In this document: positions 1-8,875 of the stretch, piece by piece | Layout of the letters: the number at the start of each line of letters is the position of its first letter | Numbering within the stretch: position 1 is the first letter of the stretch | Assembly: GCA_017651645.1 (NCBI GenBank) | Contig: JAGCCO010000037.1 | Span: forward strand, 1-11,560 | DNA from: Bacteroidales bacterium | GTDB taxonomy: Bacteria > Bacteroidota > Bacteroidia > Bacteroidales > F082 | DNA length: 11,560 nucleotides | Direction: 5' to 3' | Notes under the pieces: model-generated | Told to the model about the DNA's origin: nothing | The model's database searches: none | Seen by the model: only the letters and a program-made list of their open reading frames with translations | Position numbers and translations under genes: made by a program

Positions 1-1458
1 CAAGGCTCTCCAATCCTCGGTACTGGACACATGCCAACCTTCAGGACAGACTCCCTGGTGAGTTTCACCGATCAAGCTGTCGTCAACGACATCCGTCATG
101 TACTTGTTATCAATTTGCATGGCTTCCGTCCAAGTATAGAGACCATCAGATTCATACTTGAGTTCTTCGGCCATCCATTCATACTTTTTCCCTTCGTATT
201 CAAAGCTCACGGTCTTGTACTTATGTCCGTCACGCGGGTCGGTCATAGTCCCCGTTTTGTGGTCAACCGGAATCTTGAGAGAATCGATATATCCCTCTGT
301 CTTAAGTTCCCAGTAAAAACCGTTGCAAAGGAGATAACCCGATTTCAATACTTTCACTTGCCTATCAGCAGGATCTTCAGCAATAATAGGTCTATTGAAT
401 TGTCGATACTCGCCCCAAAGATTTTCCGTACAACGTTCAAGGCCCATGTAATCCAAAAACAGCAATATGCCGAATTCATACTCGTCCACCGCAACAAGGA
501 GGCGCTCATACGATTCTGGATCAACCTTTTTCTTGTCCAGCAAATCGTCATCATCAACATCTTCCATATTGCTATTCTCTAGGGTCAAAATATATGCCGT
601 TCCAACAAGAGACTGCATAAGGGTATCATCGAGAATACCGTCATCGGCGAAGTCATCGGTAAACCCGTCAAGATACTTTTGCAACTTAGAACAGTCAACA
701 TTTTCCCTGAGCCTCAAATGTTCCCAATGCCCCATCTCACCTCCCTCGCCATCCCAAGGGTCCCACTCGCTACGGCTATCCAGCAGAAGACTCATGTTGA
801 AAAGAATTCTGTCCGCTTCGGTCGTATTGTATATATTCAAATCTTCTGCAGAAGACACTTCAACCTTGACACCGAAAGCCCTAACAACTTCCGCCGCAGC
901 CTGTTTCTTGGCTTGAACAAAAGACTTGCCGGATTTGATCAAGTTCAAGACTCGTTTGTATTCAAAATGTGTCAAGATGTTGATGTTTACCGTTTCACGC
1001 TTTCGCAAATCAGAGACGGCATCAAGGCGCATGGGACATTCAGAACGCTTGGGATCTACTTCCATTACATCATCATCAAAGTAAAAAAATGCCTCCGCAT
1101 CATGTATATAATAACCCTCTGCAGATAGTCGCACATACTGGCTTTCTAGATCGAGGCTATCGAACTTGAAATCGCCCTTATCATTAATAGTCACAGTAGT
1201 GTATTCTCTACCGGTGGGTTCAAGATTCCCATTCGCCGATGTTTCACGGAGAACAACACTGGAGCCCTTCACGAACGGGCCCTTCTGCGCCACGCCGGCA
1301 ATCTGCTTATTCGTAATGGCGATAACACCCGAATCGACGGAGGATCCCCCAGCGACATCATTATCACCGGAACAGGCGACCACAAAGCCCAACAAAATGG
1401 CAAAAGCCAATGTAAAGACCAAGCATTCTCCAACCACTTTATACGCATCCCTTTTCAT
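1..1458 (-). CDS. Lip1: Fib_succ_major-type lipoprotein, C-terminus cut by window edge
   Basis: The reading frame is open from the ATG at 1458 to base 1 without a stop: 486 codons, 3' end outside the window. The start is set by an AGGAGG at 1466-1471, 7 nt upstream, and by an identical start context in Lip2. The product begins MKRDAYKV, has a hydrophobic stretch (about 13-28) and a lipobox FVVAC with Cys29, so it should be a membrane-anchored lipoprotein; the residues after Cys are acidic (SGDND). An N-terminal module (about 44-190) carries ITNKQIAGVAQKGP, then VNINILTHFEYKR and SGKSF..AKKQA. A mostly acidic middle region follows. The C-terminal Fib_succ_major (TIGR02145) domain starts near GTMTDPRDG, continues through YEWMAEELKYE and CPEGWHV, and is cut there. 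Its A overlaps the Reg1 stop (ATGA), implying co-transcription and translational coupling. It is a close paralogue of Lip2. Role unknown; family membership is fairly sure, substrate or partner is not known. Confidence 0.9.
   Translation of the reverse strand, partial: MKRDAYKVVGECLVFTLAFAILLGFVVACSGDNDVAGGSSVDSGVIAITNKQIAGVAQKGPFVKGSSVVLRETSANGNLEPTGREYTTVTINDKGDFKFDSLDLESQYVRLSAEGYYIHDAEAFFYFDDDVMEVDPKRSECPMRLDAVSDLRKRETVNINILTHFEYKRVLNLIKSGKSFVQAKKQAAAEVVRAFGVKVEVSSAEDLNIYNTTEADRILFNMSLLLDSRSEWDPWDGEGGEMGHWEHLRLRENVDCSKLQKYLDGFTDDFADDGILDDTLMQSLVGTAYILTLENSNMEDVDDDDLLDKKKVDPESYERLLVAVDEYEFGILLFLDYMGLERCTENLWGEYRQFNRPIIAEDPADRQVKVLKSGYLLCNGFYWELKTEGYIDSLKIPVDHKTGTMTDPRDGHKYKTVSFEYEGKKYEWMAEELKYESDGLYTWTEAMQIDNKYMTDVVDDSLIGETHQGVCPEGWHVSSTEDWRAL
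1280..1320. repeat. 41-nt block identical to one in Lip2 (4120-4160)
   Basis: This stretch of Lip1 encodes the ITNKQIAGVAQKGP core and is base-for-base identical to 4120-4160 in Lip2. A third copy at 7676-7713 in LipA matches at 37 of the first 38 bases. Flanking codons in the three genes are far less alike. Confidence 0.8.
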
Positions 1459-2312
1459 CTTTTTTCCTCCTTATTAGTTACACATTTCTTTCCCGTCCCT
1501 AAGCGTCCGCTCATCGGGAAAAGTTGCATGTTCAATCGGTAAACATATTCCGTCTCATTTTCTTCTGTGGCAATTGCCGTGATACGGCGGCGGCAAGCCT
1601 CAAGTTCCTTGCGAATGCGGTCATAAGAACGCCGCGTCAGGCCCAAGACCATTCCCGACATTTCGCGTTCCGACAGCGGCAGGTCCAAGGCCTTTATCGC
1701 AAATTCCCCCATCTGGCGCTGCAAATCTCTCGCCGCTACGGGAACGGCATCGGCAGCTCCAATCGCCACCGACTTTTCCGTCTGGCGGTAGTTTCCGTTC
1801 TTGTCCTTCTTCAGGAGATTCATCTTCACCAGCAAATCAAGCGTCTCGCTCACCTCGGCAGCGGTTATCACCGGCCTGCAGGTGCGGGCCATCTCGAGAG
1901 GCCGCGCCCCCGGCATGTGCGGAGCCAGTTCGCGCAGCACCGGATTTTTCCACGACTTGAAATAGTCAAACTCCTCTTTCCCGAGCACATGTACCTTGTG
2001 CGCCTGGGCCAACGCACAGCGTTCCTCGAAGGCGACACGCTTCGCCGCGTCGCTCTTCGCATGGGCATACGAGACCATCAACACGAAATAGGTCTGTTCA
2101 AAACCCGCAAGCCCCATAGCATTCGCGACCGAACCGGCGGCATTGACACTCAGGTTCTTCTTTCCTTCGCAAACATACTTCAAGTAAACCGCCGACGAGA
2201 AGCCTGCATCACGTGCAAAATCGCGCCAGGTAAATGCCGAGCTGCGCTTACGTTCATCGTAGTAATCCTGGATGAACTTGCGATAATCTGTATATTCAAC
2301 GATTTCCTTCAT
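1455..2312 (-). CDS. Reg1: TIGR02147 family HTH / DUF4423-like regulator
   Basis: A 285-residue protein typical in length for the Fibrobacter paralogous family TIGR02147. The N-terminal MKEIVEYTDYRKFIQDYY is the conserved opening of the family here. A helix-turn-helix is likely at about 28-70 (TWRDFARDAGFS, then a probable recognition helix SAVYLKYVCEGKKN). A winged-helix-like segment lies at about 148-182 (ITAAEVSETLDLLVKMNLLKKD.NGNYRQT), followed by a DUF4423-like C-terminal region ending in YRLNMQLFPMS (258-268). No signal peptide, so cytoplasmic and probably DNA binding. The start is chosen because Reg2 begins identically; no good Shine-Dalgarno precedes it, only an AU-rich leader. Its TGA overlaps the Lip1 ATG by 4 nt (ATGA). 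The pairing suggests it controls its own operon including Lip1; the direction of control is inferred, not shown. Confidence 0.92.
   Translation of the reverse strand: MKEIVEYTDYRKFIQDYYDERKRSSAFTWRDFARDAGFSSAVYLKYVCEGKKNLSVNAAGSVANAMGLAGFEQTYFVLMVSYAHAKSDAAKRVAFEERCALAQAHKVHVLGKEEFDYFKSWKNPVLRELAPHMPGARPLEMARTCRPVITAAEVSETLDLLVKMNLLKKDKNGNYRQTEKSVAIGAADAVPVAARDLQRQMGEFAIKALDLPLSEREMSGMVLGLTRRSYDRIRKELEACRRRITAIATEENETEYVYRLNMQLFPMSGRLGTGKKCVTNKEEKR
1466..1471 (-). promoter_or_regulatory. Strong ribosome binding site for Lip1
   Basis: AGGAGG on the minus strand, 7 nt before the Lip1 ATG, inside the last codons of Reg1 (Lys-Glu-Glu). It fixes the Lip1 start. The regulator upstream has no comparable site. 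Confidence 0.85.
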
Positions 2313-2344
2313 GCTATTAAATATAACCTAACAAACGTTATTGG

Positions 2345-2351
2345 GAACACA
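2345..2351. promoter_or_regulatory. Extra GAACACA half-site in the Reg1 leader
   Basis: GAACACA (TGTGTTC on the coding strand) lies 27 bp downstream of the proposed -10 element, in the presumed 5' UTR. It repeats the half-site word of the upstream operator at 2416-2443. At exactly the same offset Reg2 has GGACATA (5189-5195), a 5 of 7 match to its own word GAACATG. It could be a second binding site allowing looping or repression, or chance in one promoter. Confidence 0.45.
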
Positions 2352-2371
2352 AATTTTGCGTTTTCGTTCAA

Positions 2372-2397
2372 ATTTTACCATTTTTCTATTTTTTCAA
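2372..2397 (-). promoter_or_regulatory. Probable promoter of the Reg1-Lip1 operon
   Basis: The coding strand shows TGGTAAAAT, an extended -10 (TAAAAT at 2372-2377), 59 nt before the Reg1 start. The same TGGTAAAAT occurs 58 nt before Reg2. The best -35 candidate, TTGAAA (2392-2397), has only a 14-nt spacer, so the -35 is weak, which would fit a promoter needing an activator. The transcription start would be near 2365. Confidence 0.5.
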
Positions 2398-2415
2398 TTA
2401 AAATTCAGCAATCCA

Positions 2416-2443
2416 GAACACAATCATGTGTTCCAGGAACACA
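2416..2443. promoter_or_regulatory. Operator-like inverted and direct repeats upstream of Reg1
   Basis: Three copies of one 7-nt word: GAACACA (2416-2422), its inverse TGTGTTC (2427-2433), and GAACACA again (2437-2443). The last two form a perfect 17-nt palindrome, TGTGTTCCAGGAACACA, with 8-bp arms and one central base (2427-2443). The two direct copies are 21 bp apart, two helical turns. The set lies just upstream of the -35 region and abuts the U-tract of the Lip2 terminator. Cassette 2 has the same layout with a different word (5259-5287). This is probably the site of the TIGR02147 regulator; that assignment is inference. Confidence 0.7.
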
Positions 2444-2468
2444 GAAAAAAGACCCCGCAAGCGGGGCC
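2444..2468 (-). terminator. Intrinsic terminator after Lip2
   Basis: On the coding strand GGCCCCGC and GCGGGGTC form a GC-rich hairpin with a tight loop (2451-2468), directly followed by six U residues (2445-2450). It lies about 25 nt after the Lip2 stop and closely resembles the terminator at 5304-5327. Confidence 0.88.
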
Positions 2469-2492
2469 TGAATAAGAGAGAGATAATTTATC

Positions 2493-4304
2493 CTAGTTTT
2501 TCACGCAGCGGACACGGGCTTCCTCTAGCGTAGGTTCACCTAGTGGCCAAGCCGCACTGCCAATATAAATTAGAATTTGGTTCACGTCTGTGTTGAAGGA
2601 ACGATACCTTGCAGCAAGATCACATGCCCACATTTCATTATTTTCATTACAGTATTGGTACAAAGCCATCCATAATTCCTCCGTATTTTTGCCAGAAAAA
2701 GATTCATGTACGTACGTGTGATAATAGAGTCTCAAGTACTCCTTATCCATCGGTTCAAGATTGAAATCGAACCTATTATGAAATACGCCAACGGAACTCT
2801 TTGCAAAGGCGGATTCCCTGTCTGTTTTCCATGTTTCGTCAAACAGATTTTCGAGCCCGCCCACATAAACAACCAGGTCTGACCAATCCCTAGCATTTGC
2901 CACATGCCAACCATCAGGGCAAATTCCTTGATGTAAAGTATCAATCAAACCTTCATCAACATGCTGGTTCATATATTTATCATCAATTTGCATAGCAGTC
3001 GTCCAGCTATACAACCCCGAAGATGCCTCATACTTAAGGTCTTCCGCCATCCACTCATAGTTTTTCCCATTGAACACAAAACTTACCGTTTTATATTTTT
3101 TGCCGTCTCGCGGATCGGTCATAGTCCCCGATTCATGATCAATTCTCATTGTAAGCGAATCTATTTGTTCTTTTGTCTTTATTTCCCAGCTATAACCATC
3201 GCAAAGAAGGTAGCCAGAGTCCACAGTTGCCATCTGCTCCAAATTGCGATCATACTGTACAATAGGCCTTTCGAATTTCCTGACTTCGCCCCAAAGATCT
3301 TCGGTACACTGTTCAACACCCATATAGTTTAAAAACAAGAACTTACCAAAGTCGTATTGTTTTTTTATTTTCGCAACGCGGTCATACGTATTAGAGTCCA
3401 TTTCTTTCTCCGCCCTCATCATTTCTTCATCGAAGAATTCGGCGTTGTTATGACCTCTAACCTGATTATAAGCCTGATACGCCAAGTGCTGCATAATGGA
3501 ATCGCTCAACACACCATCATCGGCAAAGTCATCGGCAATCCCATCAATAAATTTCTGGAGATTCGGACAATTGACGCGATCGGGATTTGTCCAATGCTCC
3601 CATTCTTCATCGGAATCCAACTCGCCCTCCCACGGGTCCCACAATTCTCGTGTATCAACAAATATACTGAGATTATAGAGAGTCCTATCCCCTTCTGTCG
3701 TGTTGAAAATATTCAAGTCTTCCGCCAACGGGACTTCAATATTCACCCCGAACATAGCAAAAACTTCCTCCATCGCCTGTCTTTTAGCCTCAGCAAACGA
3801 CTTGCCGGACTTAAACAATTTCAGCACTCTCTTGTATTCAAAATGAGTCAAGAGATTGATGTTTGAAGTATTGCGATTTGCCAAATCAGTGACCGCATCA
3901 AGGCGCATTTGACATTCCGAAAGTCGATTGTCACCGTATTCATGCGTATAGTAACCTTCAGCAGAAAGAAGTACATATTGACATTCCAGATCAATGCTGT
4001 CAATTGCAAATTCGCCCTTGTCGCCAGTAATCGTAGTATAGTATTCCTTGCCCGTGGGTTTAAGGTTCCCTTCCGCAGATGTTTCACGGAGTACGACGCT
4101 AGACCCCTCTACAAGTGGCCCCTTCTGCGCCACGCCGGCAATCTGCTTATTCGTAATGGCTATTACGCCCGCATCGCCCGAAGCGCCGCCTACGAGATCT
4201 TTGTCATCGGAATCAGAACAGGCAACCACAAAGCCCAACAAAATGGCAAAAGCCACTGTAAAGACCAAGCATTCCCCAAAAACTTTATACGCATCCCTTT
4301 TCAT
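2493..4304 (-). CDS. Lip2: Fib_succ_major-domain lipoprotein
   Basis: A 603-residue lipoprotein starting MKRDAYKVFGEC. A more upstream in-frame ATG at 4328 exists, but AGGAGG at 4311-4316 sits 6 nt before 4304 and Lip1 starts at the same residue, so 4304 is preferred. Hydrophobic segment about 13-28, lipobox FVVAC with Cys29, then an acidic stretch (SDSDDKD). The N-terminal module (about 48-190) holds ITNKQIAGVAQKGP, NINLLTHFEYKR and KSGKSFAEAKRQA; it is shared with Lip1, LipA and, diverged, LipB. The middle (about 190-390) is rich in Asp/Glu. The Fib_succ_major (TIGR02145) domain runs from GTMTDPRDG (393) through YEWMAEDLKYE and CPDGWHV (462-468) to the terminal RVRCVKN. It overlaps Reg2 by 20 nt and is followed by a terminator. 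Probably a cell-envelope protein anchored by lipid; its ligand or activity is unknown. Confidence 0.92.
   Translation of the reverse strand: MKRDAYKVFGECLVFTVAFAILLGFVVACSDSDDKDLVGGASGDAGVIAITNKQIAGVAQKGPLVEGSSVVLRETSAEGNLKPTGKEYYTTITGDKGEFAIDSIDLECQYVLLSAEGYYTHEYGDNRLSECQMRLDAVTDLANRNTSNINLLTHFEYKRVLKLFKSGKSFAEAKRQAMEEVFAMFGVNIEVPLAEDLNIFNTTEGDRTLYNLSIFVDTRELWDPWEGELDSDEEWEHWTNPDRVNCPNLQKFIDGIADDFADDGVLSDSIMQHLAYQAYNQVRGHNNAEFFDEEMMRAEKEMDSNTYDRVAKIKKQYDFGKFLFLNYMGVEQCTEDLWGEVRKFERPIVQYDRNLEQMATVDSGYLLCDGYSWEIKTKEQIDSLTMRIDHESGTMTDPRDGKKYKTVSFVFNGKNYEWMAEDLKYEASSGLYSWTTAMQIDDKYMNQHVDEGLIDTLHQGICPDGWHVANARDWSDLVVYVGGLENLFDETWKTDRESAFAKSSVGVFHNRFDFNLEPMDKEYLRLYYHTYVHESFSGKNTEELWMALYQYCNENNEMWACDLAARYRSFNTDVNQILIYIGSAAWPLGEPTLEEARVRCVKN
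4120..4160. repeat. 41-nt block identical to one in Lip1 (1280-1320)
   Basis: Encodes ITNKQIAGVAQKGP in Lip2 and is identical to the Lip1 copy at every base. LipA has a near-identical copy at 7676-7713 (37 of 38). Either recent gene conversion or constraint at the nucleotide level could explain this. Confidence 0.8.
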
Positions 4305-5157
4305 TTTTGTCCTCCTTACTAGATACACATTTCTTCCCCGTCCCCAAGCGTTCGCTCATCGGGAACAATTGCACGTTCAAACGGTAGACCTGTTCCGTTT
4401 CGTCGTCTTCGGTAGCGATAGCCACGACGCGCCGGTAGTAATCTTCCGTTTCCTTTTTTATCCGCTCGAAAGCACGAGACGTAAGGCCCAGCGTATACCC
4501 CGACATGACACGCTCGGAAAGCGGCAGATTAAGCGACTGGATGGCAAATTCCCCCATCTGGCGTTGCAGATCGCGAGCCGCCAACGGCACAGCTTCCACA
4601 GGAGCCATTTTAATCGCCTTGTCGGTCTGATGGTAATTCCCGTTCCTGTCCTTCTTCAAAAGCTTCGCCTTCACCAAGAAGTCAAGCGTCTCGGAAACTT
4701 CCGCCGCCGTAATCTTCGGCTTGCAAGCCTTCGCTATCTCAAGCGGTTTCGCGCCGGGCATGTGCGGGGCCAATTCGCGGATTACCGAATTTTTCCACGA
4801 CTTGAAGTAGTCAAACTCCTCGTCACCGAGCACATGGACCTTGTGCGCTTTCGCCAAAGCACAGCGTTCTTCGAATGCGGCCCTTTTCGCCTTGTCGCTT
4901 TTTGCATGGGCATACGAGACCATCAGCACAAAGTAAGCCTGCTCATAGCCGGCAAGCCCCATGGCATTCGCGACAGAACCTGCGGAGCCGATACTCAGGT
5001 TCTTCTTCCCTTCGCAAACGTACTTCAAGAACACTGCCGACGAGAAGCCTGCATTCCGGGCAAATTCTTGCCACGAAAATGCCGAGCAGCGCTTGCGTTC
5101 ATCGTAGTAGTCTTGGATGTACTTGCGATAATCTGTATATTCAACGATTTCCTTCAT
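4285..5157 (-). CDS. Reg2: TIGR02147 family HTH / DUF4423-like regulator
   Basis: A 290-residue close paralogue of Reg1, collinear along its length. It opens MKEIVEYTDYRKYIQDYY; the HTH is at about 28-70 with putative recognition helix SAVFLKYVCEGKKN (Reg1 has Tyr in place of Phe). The winged-helix-like segment ITAAEVSETLDFLVKAKLLKKD lies at about 150-172, and the C-terminal region contains YRLNVQLFPMS. Compared with Reg1 it ends in five extra residues (EKGCV), because a 1-nt difference before the Lip2 start moves the stop. The overlap with Lip2 is therefore 20 nt rather than 4. Cytoplasmic, probably DNA binding; likely regulates its own operon through the repeats at 5259-5287 (inference). 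No clear ribosome binding site precedes the start. Confidence 0.92.
   Translation of the reverse strand: MKEIVEYTDYRKYIQDYYDERKRCSAFSWQEFARNAGFSSAVFLKYVCEGKKNLSIGSAGSVANAMGLAGYEQAYFVLMVSYAHAKSDKAKRAAFEERCALAKAHKVHVLGDEEFDYFKSWKNSVIRELAPHMPGAKPLEIAKACKPKITAAEVSETLDFLVKAKLLKKDRNGNYHQTDKAIKMAPVEAVPLAARDLQRQMGEFAIQSLNLPLSERVMSGYTLGLTSRAFERIKKETEDYYRRVVAIATEDDETEQVYRLNVQLFPMSERLGTGKKCVSSKEDKNEKGCV
4311..4316 (-). promoter_or_regulatory. Strong ribosome binding site that sets the Lip2 start
   Basis: AGGAGG, 6 nt before the ATG at 4304 and within the Reg2 coding sequence. It rules in favour of 4304 over the in-frame ATG at 4328, which lies upstream of it. Confidence 0.85.
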
Positions 5158-5215
5158 GAGTATGAATATACCCTATTTTTTCAAGTTAGGACATAAAATT
5201 TGCGTTTTTAAGCAG

Positions 5216-5243
5216 ATTTTACCACTTTTTGCGAATTTATCAA
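5216..5243 (-). promoter_or_regulatory. Probable promoter of the Reg2-Lip2 operon
   Basis: Coding strand TTGATA (5238-5243), a 16-nt spacer, then TAAAAT (5216-5221) preceded by TGG as an extended -10. The -10 lies 58 nt before the Reg2 start, matching the 59 nt at Reg1. Transcription would start near 5209. Confidence 0.6.
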
Positions 5244-5258
5244 AAATTACGCATTTCA

Positions 5259-5287
5259 GAACATGTCACACATGTTCCCAGAACATG
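5259..5287. promoter_or_regulatory. Operator-like inverted and direct repeats upstream of Reg2
   Basis: GAACATG (5259-5265), inverse CATGTTC (5271-5277) and GAACATG (5281-5287). The last two make a 17-nt inverted repeat with 7-bp arms. Direct copies are 22 bp apart. The nearest half-site begins 38 bp from the -10 (39 bp at Reg1), upstream of the -35, a position usual for activator sites. The core GAACA is shared with the Reg1 operator, but the last two bases are TG instead of CA. Confidence 0.7.
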
Positions 5288-5303: not shown

Positions 5304-5327
5304 AAAAAGGCCCCGCAAGCGGGGCCT
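5304..5327 (-). terminator. Intrinsic terminator after LipB
   Basis: A 9-bp perfect stem (AGGCCCCGC / GCGGGGCCT, 5308-5327) followed on the coding strand by a U run. A short A/T run also flanks the other side, so it could work in both directions. It lies about 25 nt after the LipB stop. Confidence 0.88.
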
Positions 5328-5352: not shown

Positions 5353-7005
5353 CTAGTCTTTCACGCAACGGAGACCCAAAAGTATATCCCCATCGTTGAG
5401 ACCTAATATTGGCAACCTTATATCTCGAATTGACGATACATAAACTCCAAAGCTATCACGAGAGTCATCGGACGGGTCATCACCAGGCTCAATAGTATAA
5501 TTACTGTAGAAAGAGGTATGATACACAGCTTTCTGTTCCGGATTGGGATACTGGGGATAACGCATCAGTTCTAGCATTTCGAGATCATCCTTTATGGCGT
5601 CAGCCATTTGGTCCCACTCCTGATTATTGGGTACGTGCCAACCGTCAGGGCATATACCTTGGACATTCTCATTGAGGTTTATCGGCTTTTTAAGACGAAC
5701 CTCAGAGCTATTAAACTCGCACTTTTCTCCAGCGGAAAACCCAAAAATCTGGCAAATCGTATACCCTCTACCGATCCCAGGGCTATAACTTGTCATCCCT
5801 TTAGAATACATTTCACCTCGGTTGTTTCCCCAGCGAGAAACAGTATCATCACCATTCTTAGTGTCGTATTCCAAAAGGCTTGCCATCCAGGTAGCCGTAT
5901 CGCCATTCTTTAATTCAACATCTAAAGTCTTGTAAACCATACCATCTCTTTCATCGACAAAAGAGCCATATTTTCCCGTGGTGTCAACAGGAGGGTCCCC
6001 TTCGTCTCTTTCTCCATCATAACCCATCCATACGCCGTCTCGGCAAATAACTCGTTCCTTTTCTTCAAAATGGGTCGTTCTTCTGACCTCGTCTTGAGTG
6101 TTACAGTGCCCCCATACAGAATCCCAAGGAGAAGCGAATTGCTTGAGAAACTTTTTAAAATCGGGAACTTCGGCGACTTCAACCCATTCTTTTACATACC
6201 TGGCAACGGTATCGCGGCCATCATTATCGTAAGTGTAGTAATCGTAGACGGGTTCAAGCCCGACTTTGGCATTGTCAAAAACGCCATCGTGATAATCCAT
6301 GGACACAAGGTCTTTTGTCCGGCGAATCAAGACAGTGTCATCCCAGGTTCCATCCTTTTCCAAATCCAGGGAAATCTCGGCCAAAGTACTTGCTACTTCG
6401 CCCATATCTTTACCCGTAAGCATAATCATGGAGACTGCCAAAAGTTTAGCATCGCCTTCGGTATTGTTGAGAATATCGAGCTGATCAAAGGCTTCCGTCT
6501 CCTCTGAAAAACCAAAAGCGGCCATCACTTCTTTTTCGGCTTGTTTTTTCGCTTCGCCAACAGTTTTACCCTGCTTGACCAGATAGCGAATTCGGTCAAA
6601 AGACAGATGCGTCAGAACGTTGATGTTGACATGGTCTAGGTCCCGCAAGTCGACAAGACTATTCAACGAAATCGTTTGTTCAGAAGGAAAACCGCTCAAC
6701 TCGCTGGTAAAGTAGCCGTTGGCATTGAGCCATGCATAACGATCGTCCAAATCAATGTTTTTCAAGGAGTATTCACCGCGGTCGTTATCGATTTCCGTGG
6801 AGAAATGTGCCCCCGTTTGCTGCAGTTTTTCATCCATCCCATAAAGGGTCACTTTGGTTCCTTTTGTAAAAGGCCCCTTTTGCGACTTCCCGGAAATAGT
6901 TCTTCCAGAGGCCGAACTTTCAGAACCCGATTCAAACTGGCTGCACGCCGTGAAAAAAGTTCCTGCGACAAGTAACGTGAAAATGGCAAGATTTTTTTTA
7001 GACAT
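5353..7005 (-). CDS. LipB: Fib_succ_major-domain lipoprotein, third gene of the Reg3 operon
   Basis: A 550-residue lipoprotein. Signal: MSKKNLAIFTLLVAGTFFTAC, lipobox FTAC, Cys21, then a Ser/Glu-rich tether. The N-terminal module (about 36-168) is a diverged relative of those in the other lipoproteins: SGKSQKGPFTKGTKVTLY, VNINVLTHLSFDR, KQGKTVGEAKKQAEKEV. The middle is rich in charged residues. The Fib_succ_major domain runs from FVDERDGMVYKT (about 349) through ATWMASLLEY and ICPDGWHVP (451-459) to the terminal RCVKD. It starts 9 nt after the LipA stop, with AGGAGG at 7010-7015 sharing a base with that stop. It is less like Lip1 and Lip2 than they are to each other: it lacks ITNKQIAGVA and its leader differs. 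Envelope-anchored; function unknown. Confidence 0.92.
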   Translation of the reverse strand: MSKKNLAIFTLLVAGTFFTACSQFESGSESSASGRTISGKSQKGPFTKGTKVTLYGMDEKLQQTGAHFSTEIDNDRGEYSLKNIDLDDRYAWLNANGYFTSELSGFPSEQTISLNSLVDLRDLDHVNINVLTHLSFDRIRYLVKQGKTVGEAKKQAEKEVMAAFGFSEETEAFDQLDILNNTEGDAKLLAVSMIMLTGKDMGEVASTLAEISLDLEKDGTWDDTVLIRRTKDLVSMDYHDGVFDNAKVGLEPVYDYYTYDNDGRDTVARYVKEWVEVAEVPDFKKFLKQFASPWDSVWGHCNTQDEVRRTTHFEEKERVICRDGVWMGYDGERDEGDPPVDTTGKYGSFVDERDGMVYKTLDVELKNGDTATWMASLLEYDTKNGDDTVSRWGNNRGEMYSKGMTSYSPGIGRGYTICQIFGFSAGEKCEFNSSEVRLKKPINLNENVQGICPDGWHVPNNQEWDQMADAIKDDLEMLELMRYPQYPNPEQKAVYHTSFYSNYTIEPGDDPSDDSRDSFGVYVSSIRDIRLPILGLNDGDILLGLRCVKD

Positions 7006-7009
7006 AATT

Positions 7010-7015
7010 CCTCCT
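7010..7015 (-). promoter_or_regulatory. Ribosome binding site of LipB overlapping the LipA stop
   Basis: The coding strand reads TAAGGAGG: the last A of the LipA stop codon is the first A of AGGAGG. The spacer to the LipB ATG is 4 nt, short but workable. A ribosome finishing LipA would be placed directly on the LipB start. Confidence 0.75.
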
Positions 7016-7878
7016 TATTTTCCCATCCATTCGTATATACACTTAAAGAAATCATCATCTCCATGCAGTTCTACAGAACCTCTCAATCCAGGCAGTTCGC
7101 CTGAAGTAGAAAAGACCCGTGCAAGATCGTCAATACCTGCTTGAACACCACTGCAATCGTTATTGGTCTCATAAGCGCAAATAGAACCGCAATATTCACC
7201 GAACATACATTCATCGAAATGCGCACTAATTTGTTCCAGCGCCTTGTCTGTTTTTCCGTCATTGGCAATATCCAGATTCTCAAAATCATCTGCAAGGTTT
7301 TCATAGCCAAACTCTTGCATCCATTCTTCACGAGCCTGCTTTTTTGCCTCGGCAAACGATTTCCCGTTTTTAACGAGGTAAAGAGCGCGATCGTATTCAA
7401 GATGCGTAAGGATATTGATGTTTATCTGGTCTCGCTCTCGGATGTCGGACAGAGCCCTTAAGCTAATCTGGCATACCGTGTTCTCGCCCGTCGTTTCTCT
7501 TTTATAATAACCTGTCGCCTTCAGCCGGACAAACTGGCTTTCCAAATTGATGCCATCTATTTGGAAATCCCCCTTGTCGGTGCGAGTCGTGGCAAAGAAT
7601 TCCTTGCCCGTAGGCTTAAGGCTTCCATCCGCCGACGTTTCCGCGAGGACAATATTCGAACCCTTTACAAAAGGGCCCTTCTGCGCCACGCCGGCAATCT
7701 GCTTGTTCGTAATCGCAACAATGCCTTCCGCCTCTTCGCTCGTGCCGGAGACCTTTTCACTATCAGAACAGGCACCGAACAGAACTCCCAATACAAGGGC
7801 CAGCAAAATTCCTGTTTTCGCTCTCCACGGCTTGCCCGGACGGAAAGCATTTCTGGTTTCATCAAAACAATTCATCAT
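7015..7878 (-). CDS. LipA: short lipoprotein with the shared N-terminal module only
   Basis: A 287-residue protein that lacks the Fib_succ_major domain. A long charged n-region (MMNCFDETRNAFRPGKPWRAK) precedes a hydrophobic segment and a lipobox LFGAC, Cys37; Phe at -3 is slightly off consensus. The N-terminal module matches Lip1 and Lip2 closely: ITNKQIAGVAQKGPFVKGS, ETSADGSLKPTGKEF, ININILTHLEYDR, NGKSFAEAKKQA. The tail (about 225-287) is Cys-containing and ends in CIYEWMGK. Its ATG overlaps the Reg3 stop (ATGA). A second ATG follows immediately at 7875. GGAGAAG upstream gives a 7-nt spacer to the first ATG. It may be a truncated copy of a Lip1/Lip2-like gene or a genuine short paralogue; the clean stop next to the LipB ribosome binding site favours a settled gene. 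Function unknown. Confidence 0.9.
   Translation of the reverse strand: MMNCFDETRNAFRPGKPWRAKTGILLALVLGVLFGACSDSEKVSGTSEEAEGIVAITNKQIAGVAQKGPFVKGSNIVLAETSADGSLKPTGKEFFATTRTDKGDFQIDGINLESQFVRLKATGYYKRETTGENTVCQISLRALSDIRERDQININILTHLEYDRALYLVKNGKSFAEAKKQAREEWMQEFGYENLADDFENLDIANDGKTDKALEQISAHFDECMFGEYCGSICAYETNNDCSGVQAGIDDLARVFSTSGELPGLRGSVELHGDDDFFKCIYEWMGK
7676..7713. repeat. Third copy of the conserved Lip1/Lip2 block
   Basis: Inside LipA, 37 of 38 bases match the blocks at 1280 and 4120; the one change is synonymous. The neighbouring sequence of LipA is much more diverged. Confidence 0.7.
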
Positions 7879-8729
7879 TTTTCTTCTCCTTTACCCGCTG
7901 TTACTGTTTTCAAATTTTCTGTCAACGGGAAAAGTTGCATGTTCAAACGGCAAACCTTTTCCACGTTTTTATCCGCCGAGACAATCGACACGATGCGCTT
8001 GCGGCATTCCGTGAGTTCCACGACAACCTTTTCGTAGCTTTCGGCAGTCATGCCCATGGTAATTCCACTAAAATGACGTTCCGAAATTGGCAGCGTGTCC
8101 AAAGCCTCAAGCGCGAACTCGCCCATCTGGCGCAGCAGCGAATGTATCGCCACAACCACCACGTTCAGGCGGCCCGTACTTAACGAACGGTTCGTCTGGT
8201 GGTAATTGCCCTTGATATCCCTTTCCAGCAATCCGGACTTGAGAAGGAAGCGGAGACTCTCGCTCACGTCGGCAGCAGAAATCGCGGGCCTACAAACCTT
8301 CGCAATCTCGTTCGGCTTCGCCCCCGGCATCGCAACCGCAAGTTCACGTATCACGGAATGCTTCCATGTCTCATAGAAGGTGTACAAGTCGCTCCCGAGG
8401 ATTTTCACATGGTTCGCTGCACTCAGCGCCTGCATTTCCTCAAAGCACTTCTTCTTTTCCCTATTCGTTTTCGCACTTTCGTAGCGAACCATCAAGACGA
8501 AGTAGTCGTACTCGAAGCCAAGCAACCCCATGGCAAAAGCCGTCTTTTTAGCCCCTTCCTCACGAAGCCGAGTCTTGCCATCGCAAACAAGCTTCAAGTA
8601 CGACCCCGAGGCAAACCCCGCAAGCTTCGCAAACTCGCGCCATGTAAACGCAGAACTACGCTTGCGTTCGCTGTAGTAGTCCAGAATATACTGGCGATAA
8701 TCTTTGTATTCAGTAACCGTTTTCATCAT
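7875..8729 (-). CDS. Reg3: TIGR02147 family HTH / DUF4423-like regulator, diverged
   Basis: 284 residues from the ATG at 8729. A second ATG at 8726 aligns with the start of Reg1 and Reg2 (MKTVTEYKDYR against MKEIVEYTDYR) and may be the true start. The HTH region (about 28-70) is clearly different in the putative recognition helix: SGSYLKLVCDGKTRLR. The winged-helix-like part ISAADVSESLRFLLKSGLLERD and the C-terminal CRLNMQLFPLT are conserved. Cytoplasmic, probably DNA binding. It heads a three-gene operon with LipA (4-nt overlap) and LipB. The changed recognition helix goes with a different repeat word upstream (CTATAAAAC). Control of its own operon is inferred. Confidence 0.9.
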   Translation of the reverse strand: MMKTVTEYKDYRQYILDYYSERKRSSAFTWREFAKLAGFASGSYLKLVCDGKTRLREEGAKKTAFAMGLLGFEYDYFVLMVRYESAKTNREKKKCFEEMQALSAANHVKILGSDLYTFYETWKHSVIRELAVAMPGAKPNEIAKVCRPAISAADVSESLRFLLKSGLLERDIKGNYHQTNRSLSTGRLNVVVVAIHSLLRQMGEFALEALDTLPISERHFSGITMGMTAESYEKVVVELTECRKRIVSIVSADKNVEKVCRLNMQLFPLTENLKTVTAGKGEEK

Positions 8730-8770: not shown

Positions 8771-8787
8771 CTAAAAAACAAAAATGG
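8771..8787. repeat. Third, diverged copy of the Reg3 upstream repeat
   Basis: CTAAAAAACAAAAATGG matches 8842-8858 (CTATAAAACAAAAATGC) at 15 of 17 bases. It lies just downstream of the proposed -10, in the leader. A-rich composition makes chance similarity possible. Confidence 0.4.
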
Positions 8788-8841: not shown

Positions 8842-8875
8842 CTATAAAACAAAAATGCAAAACTATAAAACAAAA
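8842..8875. repeat. 13-bp direct repeats upstream of Reg3, 21 bp apart
   Basis: CTATAAAACAAAA at 8842-8854 and 8863-8875, each preceded by GCA plus two or three bases. The 21-bp period equals that of the GAACACA repeats upstream of Reg1. No inverted middle copy was seen, unlike in the other two cassettes. The distal copy also supplies the U-tract of the upstream terminator, so its role as a binding site is less certain. Confidence 0.55.

Follow-up and report, generated by a model that had tools for sequence, protein, structure and literature searches.

Repeated promoter words covary with helix-turn-helix residues of TIGR02147 regulators and are probably their own operators in Fibrobacter

The 11,560-nucleotide stretch analysed here (the window; contig JAGCCO010000037.1 of assembly GCA_017651645.1, deposited as Bacteroidales bacterium) carries three genes for regulators of the TIGR02147/DUF4423 family, termed Reg1, Reg2 and Reg3, each preceded by a short DNA word repeated at its own promoter. 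Comparison with Fibrobacter genomes revealed that similarly spaced repeats recur upstream of related regulators, and that the letters of the word covary with residues of the helix-turn-helix (HTH) domain encoded by the adjoining gene. In all likelihood these repeats are the regulators' own operators, whose specificity would have co-diverged with the proteins; our confidence stems from the repeat spacing, the covariation ranking, the geometry of sites B and D and the behaviour of word position 1, all of which support this reading. Fibrobacter is a rumen bacterium with many copies of one uncharacterised regulator, each carrying its own repeated DNA address.

The three regulator genes are:
1455..2312, minus strand: Reg1, TIGR02147/DUF4423 regulator, with the HTH at about residues 10-84
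4285..5157, minus strand: Reg2, TIGR02147/DUF4423 regulator, with W29 and Q30 (codon 5068-5070)
7875..8729, minus strand: Reg3, TIGR02147/DUF4423 regulator with a third word (GTTTTA at site C)

Most of the TIGR02147 (Fsuc_second) model is covered by each protein, with 321.7, 332.1 and 286.7 bits for Reg1, Reg2 and Reg3, respectively, against a cut-off of 50, and PF14394 (DUF4423) lies above its cut-off in all three. The key residues of Reg1 are W29, R30 (codon 2223-2225), A41, V42, Y46 and K52.

Repeated words upstream of the regulators

The sites are named from the outside in, as A (outermost), B (inverted), C and D (proximal to the gene):
2437..2443, minus strand: Reg1 site A, outermost direct copy (GAACACA)
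2427..2433, plus strand: Reg1 site B, inverted, forming a palindrome with C
2416..2422, minus strand: Reg1 site C, distal direct copy (GAACACA)
2345..2351, minus strand: Reg1 site D, proximal, an exact copy (coding strand TGTGTTC) at distances of 71 bp to C and 92 bp to A
5281..5287, minus strand: Reg2 site A, outermost direct copy (GAACATG)
5271..5277, plus strand: Reg2 site B, inverted
5259..5265, minus strand: Reg2 site C, distal direct copy
5189..5195, minus strand: Reg2 site D, proximal, ATGTCC, one mismatch to ATGTTC
8863..8875, minus strand: Reg3 site A, outermost, 21 bp from C
8842..8854, minus strand: Reg3 site C, distal, 71 bp from D
8771..8783, minus strand: Reg3 site D, proximal, one mismatch, 92% identical to the other copies

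On the coding strand the words read TGTGTTC for Reg1 and CATGTTC for Reg2. An earlier, sequence-only reading of this DNA had described a direct, inverted and direct order of half-sites upstream of both genes, which is borne out by sites C, B and A at the positions listed, as is the period of the direct copies, 21 bp for Reg1 and 22 bp for Reg2. However, it counted three half-sites per operator, where four are present, having overlooked site D in both promoters. At Reg3 the third word, whose plus-strand form is CTATAAAACA, stands at 8842 and 8863 with a one-mismatch copy at 8771, and no inverted site B was seen there. The exact Reg1 and Reg2 palindromes each occur once within the window; with up to three mismatches, three (Reg1) and four (Reg2) matches are found, compared with shuffle means of 0.47 and 0.68, respectively.

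Matches to TIGR02147 number 41 in the nearest genome (G001) and 12-45 in each of the 16 Fibrobacter genomes searched, and at least one copy is present in 53 of 60 genomes sampled across the phylum. We collected 180 loci from five genomes plus some others, among which 117 proteins share the HTH type of Reg1-3, a count that includes these three themselves. One was dropped owing to a short upstream region, and the remaining 116 regulators with a full upstream region form 55 groups at 80% identity. Across these groups, repeats within a regulator's own promoter peak at a distance of 70-74 bp (26 group-hits) and again at 90-92 bp (8), against 0-4 at other distances between 30 and 130 bp. A first and weak repeat test gave own pairs reaching a score of 9 at 63 of the 116 regulators, versus 16% of foreign pairs. 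The proposal that these are the cognate sites is thus supported, in that Fibrobacter TIGR02147 genes of this HTH type are preceded by an excess of word repeats at a fixed spacing.

Sites C and D were placed by expectation-maximisation without protein information, and 86 of the 116 regulators, in 43 groups, were kept for further analysis, the other 30 having unsure sites or being window duplicates. Site B, which was not used in the placement, agrees with the regulator's own word in at least 6 of its 7 bases in 18 of the 43 groups; foreign words do so in 12% of cases, and a control zone yields such matches in 3 of 43 groups. Its overall word match is 220, against 190.7 (standard deviation 4.7) for shuffled words, a value reached by none of 2000 shuffles. 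In 12 of the 18 groups, the matching site B lies 12 nt upstream of C.

In G001, the 25 regulators with confident sites (of 31 of the type) use 19 different 7-mers, and their five-residue signatures number 20. Searching this genome with the degenerate palindrome GAACAYRN3-6YRTGTTC revealed no wide Reg1/Reg2 regulon, a search that left out single half-sites elsewhere. The pattern occurs at three places, namely the Reg1 site, the Reg2 site and a position inside a tetratricopeptide repeat (TPR)-like reading frame, which we take as a chance match. Among the 28 regulators read in a genome from another family of the class (G070), no repeat distance is prominent.

Inspection by eye revealed the GTATCAT layout in other genera of the same family, at four of 30 loci (L322, L323, L324 and L328). 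Four further loci (L019, L084, L118 and L163), also by eye, have an inverted GTATCAT (ATGATACAAA) between -35 and -10, directly after D, which appears to be a different operator type missed by the C-D search. Another TIGR02147 clade (MN[VI][YF]AYYNYR; L002, L045-L059 and L307-L309) has several GTGTTC/GAACAC half-sites upstream, the layout of which differs in the members read (L002 and L307-L309).

Covariation between word letters and HTH residues

The N-terminus of the Reg1 type is predicted to be a five-helix HTH of the lambda-repressor (XRE) fold, and the predicted structure matches P22 c2, DdrO and 434 repressor. Two structure models have a predicted local distance difference test (pLDDT) score of 56 and 69, respectively; in the second, the HTH is good and residues 179-218 are unreliable. 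Pfam gave no HTH sequence model in Reg1-3 at an E-value up to 0.01, DUF4423 alone being found, and the best PDB sequence match to the HTH is weak (E 0.52). A full-length Foldseek search yielded no match at an E-value up to 0.001, and the C-terminal DUF4423 half has weak Foldseek matches to MarR-like winged helices.

Word positions are given on the coding strand (G1 T2 A3 T4 C5 A6 T7 in GTATCAT), and the tryptophan (W) of the F[ST]W motif, residue 29 in Reg1, is the reference for protein positions. Ranking all 272 protein columns of the 86 regulators by mutual information put five HTH residues on top, each for one word position: W+1 for position 1 (z 5.9), W+12 for position 3 (z 5.4), W+17 for position 4 (z 5.8), W+13 for position 5 (z 4.0) and W+23 for position 6 (z 4.7). 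The covariation that the sequence-only reading had proposed to look for is therefore found, in the part of that check which was run. For the base before position 1, which is T in Reg1 and C in Reg2 and is the second of the two changed bases noted in that reading, none of the 272 columns is a clear partner.

The pairing of W+1 with position 1, counted on 138 regulators (276 cells), is without exception for R (192 cells, all G), H (18, all A) and P (10, all T); Q (56 cells) has A in 41, T in 6 and G in 9. The words of newly added loci resembling Reg1 and Reg2 had been placed by a pattern in which positions 2, 4 and 6 were set, positions 3 and 5 were restricted and position 1 was free. Because the pattern constrained them, positions 3-6 were counted on the 103 regulators (206 cells) placed without any word pattern, a set in which W+1 gives R:G 140/140, H:A 6/6, P:T 10/10 and Q:A 35/50. 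At W+12, P goes with A at position 3 (134/140), D with G (6/6), G with T (6/6) and R with G (5/6), whereas two residues are mixed, S (T 18, G 14, A 2) and A (A 8, G 6). Position 4 follows W+17, with Y:T 84/84, L:T 101/102, V:G 12/12, T or M:C 6/6, and Q with one T and one C. W+13 pairs with position 5 as V:T 66/86, N:A 28/44, T:C 18/18, G:C 8/8 and I:C 12/14, S being divided between C (21) and T (15). Finally, W+23 pairs with position 6 as K:C 24/24, F:G 46/46, A:A 10/10, S:A 69/82 and T:A 30/36, with Y split into G 4 and A 2.

Applied to the window, Reg1 and Reg2 share A, V, Y and K at W+12, W+13, W+17 and W+23, and differ at W+1 (R30 versus Q30). The code gives G-T-[A/G]-T-T-C for Reg1, which has GTGTTC, and A-T-[A/G]-T-T-C for Reg2, which has ATGTTC. 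The suspicion that specificity diverged after duplication is hence strengthened, and the change can be named: R30 with G in Reg1 against Q30 with A in Reg2. The residues of Reg3 (R, G, S, L and T) lead to G-T-T-T-[T/C]-A, and its site C is GTTTTA. Elsewhere, the Q proteins that have R at W+12 (L023, L251 and L258) carry the word GTGTTG or GTATTG, so that this R looks like a compensation. Proteins with the signature SSSSYMKVV have GTTGCAT, and L144 (SSPSYMKVV) has GTAGCAT at D and GTAGTAT at C.

Such repeats could also be relics of a duplicated promoter, or terminator hairpins in which the copies form RNA stems, given the paralogy of Reg1 and Reg2, the likeness of their spacers and the GC-rich hairpins that adjoin the sites (2450-2469 and 5308-5327). 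However, copied promoters would not shift their words in step with protein residues, and Reg3, whose word is unrelated, also has distances of 71 and 21 bp, whereas the GC-rich hairpins are separate from the words; we give these origins a negligible chance.

Kinship among the regulators was controlled with a tree built from residues outside the HTH of the 103 regulators. Residue and base changed on the same branch five times for W+1 and position 1 (out of 6 changes in the residue and 8 in the base, with 0.24 expected), seven times for W+12 and position 3 (expected 0.76), and three times for W+17 and position 4, which are all three base changes there (expected 0.10). New loci gave a further check. 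From 79 of them, 52 were kept, the others being more than 97% identical to earlier ones, below the site score or without a readable word. At the 47 loci resembling Reg1 and Reg2, some of which are near-copies of earlier loci, every readable word follows the pairing: R has G at all 32 D and all 33 C sites, and Q or H has A at all 9 D and all 9 C sites, six D and five C words being unreadable. The held-out tests leave out loci at least 95% identical to earlier ones; in the 34 remaining loci of this kind, all 68 cells obey the W+1 rule (R:G 52, Q:A 6 and H:A 10), compared with 52 of 68 by always guessing G.

Several observations weigh against the operator reading. Site placement is unsure for 27 of the 113 regulators outside the window, and for word positions 2, 7 and 8 the top-ranked column lies outside the HTH. 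Since A at W+12 pairs with both G and A (6:8), the G at position 3 of Reg1 is not sharply predicted. Same-branch changes number only three each for W+13 with position 5 (expected 1.02) and W+23 with position 6 (expected 1.03), so that the pairings of W+1, W+12 and W+17 rest on repeated changes, and these two much less. The partial Mantel correlation between the five residues and word distance, with rest-of-protein distance removed, supports the reading, at 0.64 over 47 representatives, reached by none of 2000 entropy-matched column sets (maximum 0.40) and nearly the same in a larger set, but this test is not independent because the five columns were chosen on overlapping data. In the 14 other held-out loci (28 cells) the code is correct at 22 cells for position 1 against 20 by the commonest base, and at 23 against 21, 28 against 28, 26 against 22 and 25 against 25 for positions 3, 4, 5 and 6, barely beating the commonest base because nearly all of these loci have one HTH type. 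Moreover, GTATCAT is common to six of the 25 regulators in G001, which suggests that insulation between the switches is partial, not all words being private; the flanks of these six words may differ.

Promoters, phased spacers and a looped-operator model

Three further features lie between site C and the start codon of the regulators:
2320..2325, minus strand: probable -10 of Reg1, TATATT, 7 nt from the ATG, with site D in the expected -35 place
5165..5170, minus strand: probable -10 of Reg2, TATATT, 7 nt from the ATG
2352..2415, minus strand: Reg1 spacer between D and C with phased A/T tracts, including TGGTAAAAT at 2372-2380

The element TGGTAAAAT, found at 2372-2380 for Reg1 and 5216-5224 for Reg2, had previously been taken as the -10. 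It is probably not one, because it sits on an A-tract that keeps a constant place relative to site D, and TATATT is closer to the ATG. In the Reg2 spacer the best site of a simple promoter score is TTGATA-16-TAAAAT, and the top choice for Reg1 also falls in the spacer; a second promoter may thus exist there besides the TATATT -10.

From the start of site D to a TATATT-like -10, the distance is 34-39 bp in 35 of the 43 groups, 24-25 bp in three, to which the relatives of Reg1 belong, and 10-15 bp in five, classes that differ by about one helical turn. TTGAC occupies the -35 place in 21 of the 35 groups of the 34-39 bp class. In 27 of the 43 groups, 6-9 nt separate the end of the called -10 from the ATG, hence many of these mRNAs may be leaderless. 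The KY[VI]SEG clade (L011, L012, L023, L085, L111, L160, L161 and L166) has a called -10 that ends 50-58 nt from the ATG and, in several members, an AGGAGG-like site, unlike the mostly leaderless-looking others.

Measured upstream from D, the centres of the A/T tracts in the C-D spacer fall at about 3, 13, 22, 33, 43 and 51 bp. Aligned on D, their phase coherence at 10 bp is 0.49, compared with a maximum of 0.23 in 1000 nulls. Promoters resembling those of Reg1 and Reg2 mostly retain the tract positions, TGGTAAAAT of Reg1 being the tract at about 24. Autocorrelation of A-tracts against run-shuffles was mostly negative, a test superseded by the one aligned on D, and a control of 218 sites is a poor one, consisting mostly of GC-richer DNA. 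The C-D spacer is probably curved.

Even with no regulator involved, phased A/T tracts ahead of a promoter can serve as UP-elements or as curved DNA. The tracts seen here could work likewise, with the sites belonging to RNA polymerase or to another, shared regulator and the TIGR02147 proteins being bystanders. Yet a single shared protein would keep one word, instead of 19 distinct 7-mers among 25 regulators in one genome, and the words track the HTH residues of the adjoining gene, which makes this explanation very unlikely.

We propose that the N-terminal HTH of a TIGR02147 protein, of predicted lambda-repressor (XRE) fold, recognises a word of 6-7 bp at two places: site D, next to or overlapping the -35, and site C, about 71 bp further upstream, which in Reg1 and Reg2 forms a palindrome (B-C) accompanied by an outer site A. 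The tracts phased at about 10 bp, in a probably curved spacer, would let the proteins at C/B and D touch, so that the promoter of the regulator-lipoprotein operon is enclosed in a small loop. The outcome would most likely be autorepression, lifted by some signal. Paralogs would switch specificity by swapping a few base-reading residues (W+1, W+12, W+13, W+17 and W+23), and the sites in their own promoters would change along with them.

Autorepression by a loop fits best with the fixed C-D distance, the phased spacer, the helical steps of D and the good promoters, and taken alone we rate it slightly above even. Against it stand the promoters without a -35 under site D, which would fit activation too. 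In the AT-rich control the phasing was not significant (67 of 500 shuffles as high), but this control is weakened by its small size of 25 sites, a few of them operator-like. Positive autoregulation, where the same regulator-operator pairing applies, the protein at D contacts RNA polymerase as an activator and C/B together with the spacer aid binding, has a somewhat less than even chance. Class II activators bind directly upstream of the -35, which is where D lies in most other promoters, and in those resembling Reg1 and Reg2 it takes the expected -35 place with no good -35 seen. By contrast, the 21 of 35 groups that combine TTGAC and a TATATT-like -10 with D at 34-39 bp should need no help, and a protein bound 10-15 bp from the called -10, as in five groups (the call being doubtful in two, L029 and L036), normally blocks polymerase.

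One could tentatively picture Fibrobacter as holding many largely insulated switches for surface lipoproteins, autoregulated units with pre-curved loop operators that share one modular code of about five residue-base pairings. A handful of point mutations in the HTH, with the three to four promoter sites then changing in concert, would give rise to a new private switch; we hold this broader picture to be possible, at clearly below even.

Lipoprotein neighbours and comparison with known regulators

The genes behind the regulators encode lipoprotein-like proteins:
2493..4328, minus strand: FISUMP (TIGR02145) lipoprotein-like gene, overlapping the end of Reg2
7015..7878, minus strand: lipoprotein-like gene, overlapping the end of Reg3
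5353..7005, minus strand: second lipoprotein-like FISUMP gene, behind Reg3

The gene at 2493-4328 is a probable co-transcribed target of the Reg2 unit, and an orthologous counterpart of this pair is present among the related loci. At 91 of 113 related loci a lipoprotein-like open reading frame starts between -60 and +250 nt from the regulator end, 88 of them within -50 to +19. By eye, the lipoproteins at 2493-4328 and 7015-7878 have a common N-terminal module (AITNKQIAGVAQKGP...) and different remainders, like a surface family with exchangeable ends. A sodium-pumping decarboxylase beta subunit (TIGR01109; 10666-11526) adjoins the cassettes and is unrelated to the finding. On another contig, labelled Bacteroidales RUG14682 (L181, CADCIQ010000185.1), the regulator is 100% identical to Reg1; that label, or the binning, is probably wrong.

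The open-access literature searched does not name TIGR02147, mentions DUF4423 in one paper, in a table line, and has no title on this regulator-operator system among those listed. For strain S85, a section of the Fibrobacteres phylogenomics paper groups 54 TIGR02145 genes under other cellulose-binding proteins (PMC4704652), and a term look-up in the genome paper (PMC3079729) returned none of TIGR0214, Fib_succ_major, FISUMP and DUF4423. In the S85 cell-envelope proteome, according to an excerpt of the study, 40 of 49 quantified putative lipoproteins were on cellulose (PMC6851124).

The system resembles the lambda, 434 and P22 phage repressors in its predicted HTH fold and in having candidate cognate sites repeated near the regulator's own promoter. 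Relatives among the phage repressors differ in specificity through a few HTH residues. Counting from the shared glycine, we take W+12, W+13 and W+17 to be recognition-helix positions 1, 2 and 6, and W+23 to be presumably the position of lambda Asn55. Unlike the phage repressors, the TIGR02147 proteins have a C-terminal half made of DUF4423 and, by one weak alignment (E 0.52), an extra residue before the recognition helix; in the same alignment, W+1 lies one residue past the conserved Gln of helix 2. GalR, LacI and lambda cI are looping repressors with two operators and a spacer of fixed, helically phased length. The TIGR02147 promoters likewise have, by sequence, at least two candidate sites at a helically phased distance, but differ in a spacer of about 71 bp with phased A/T tracts, across which a loop would form.

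The approach itself parallels that of a MerR covariation study, in the relevant part of which mutual information between protein and site indicates base-contacting residues (PMC5045206). Here the residue-base code is partly readable and can be tested by single substitutions. In contrast to MerR, the Fibrobacter set brings together many paralogs within a single genome, each having a promoter word of its own, and forms a natural series for how duplicated regulators change specificity while their promoter sites follow.

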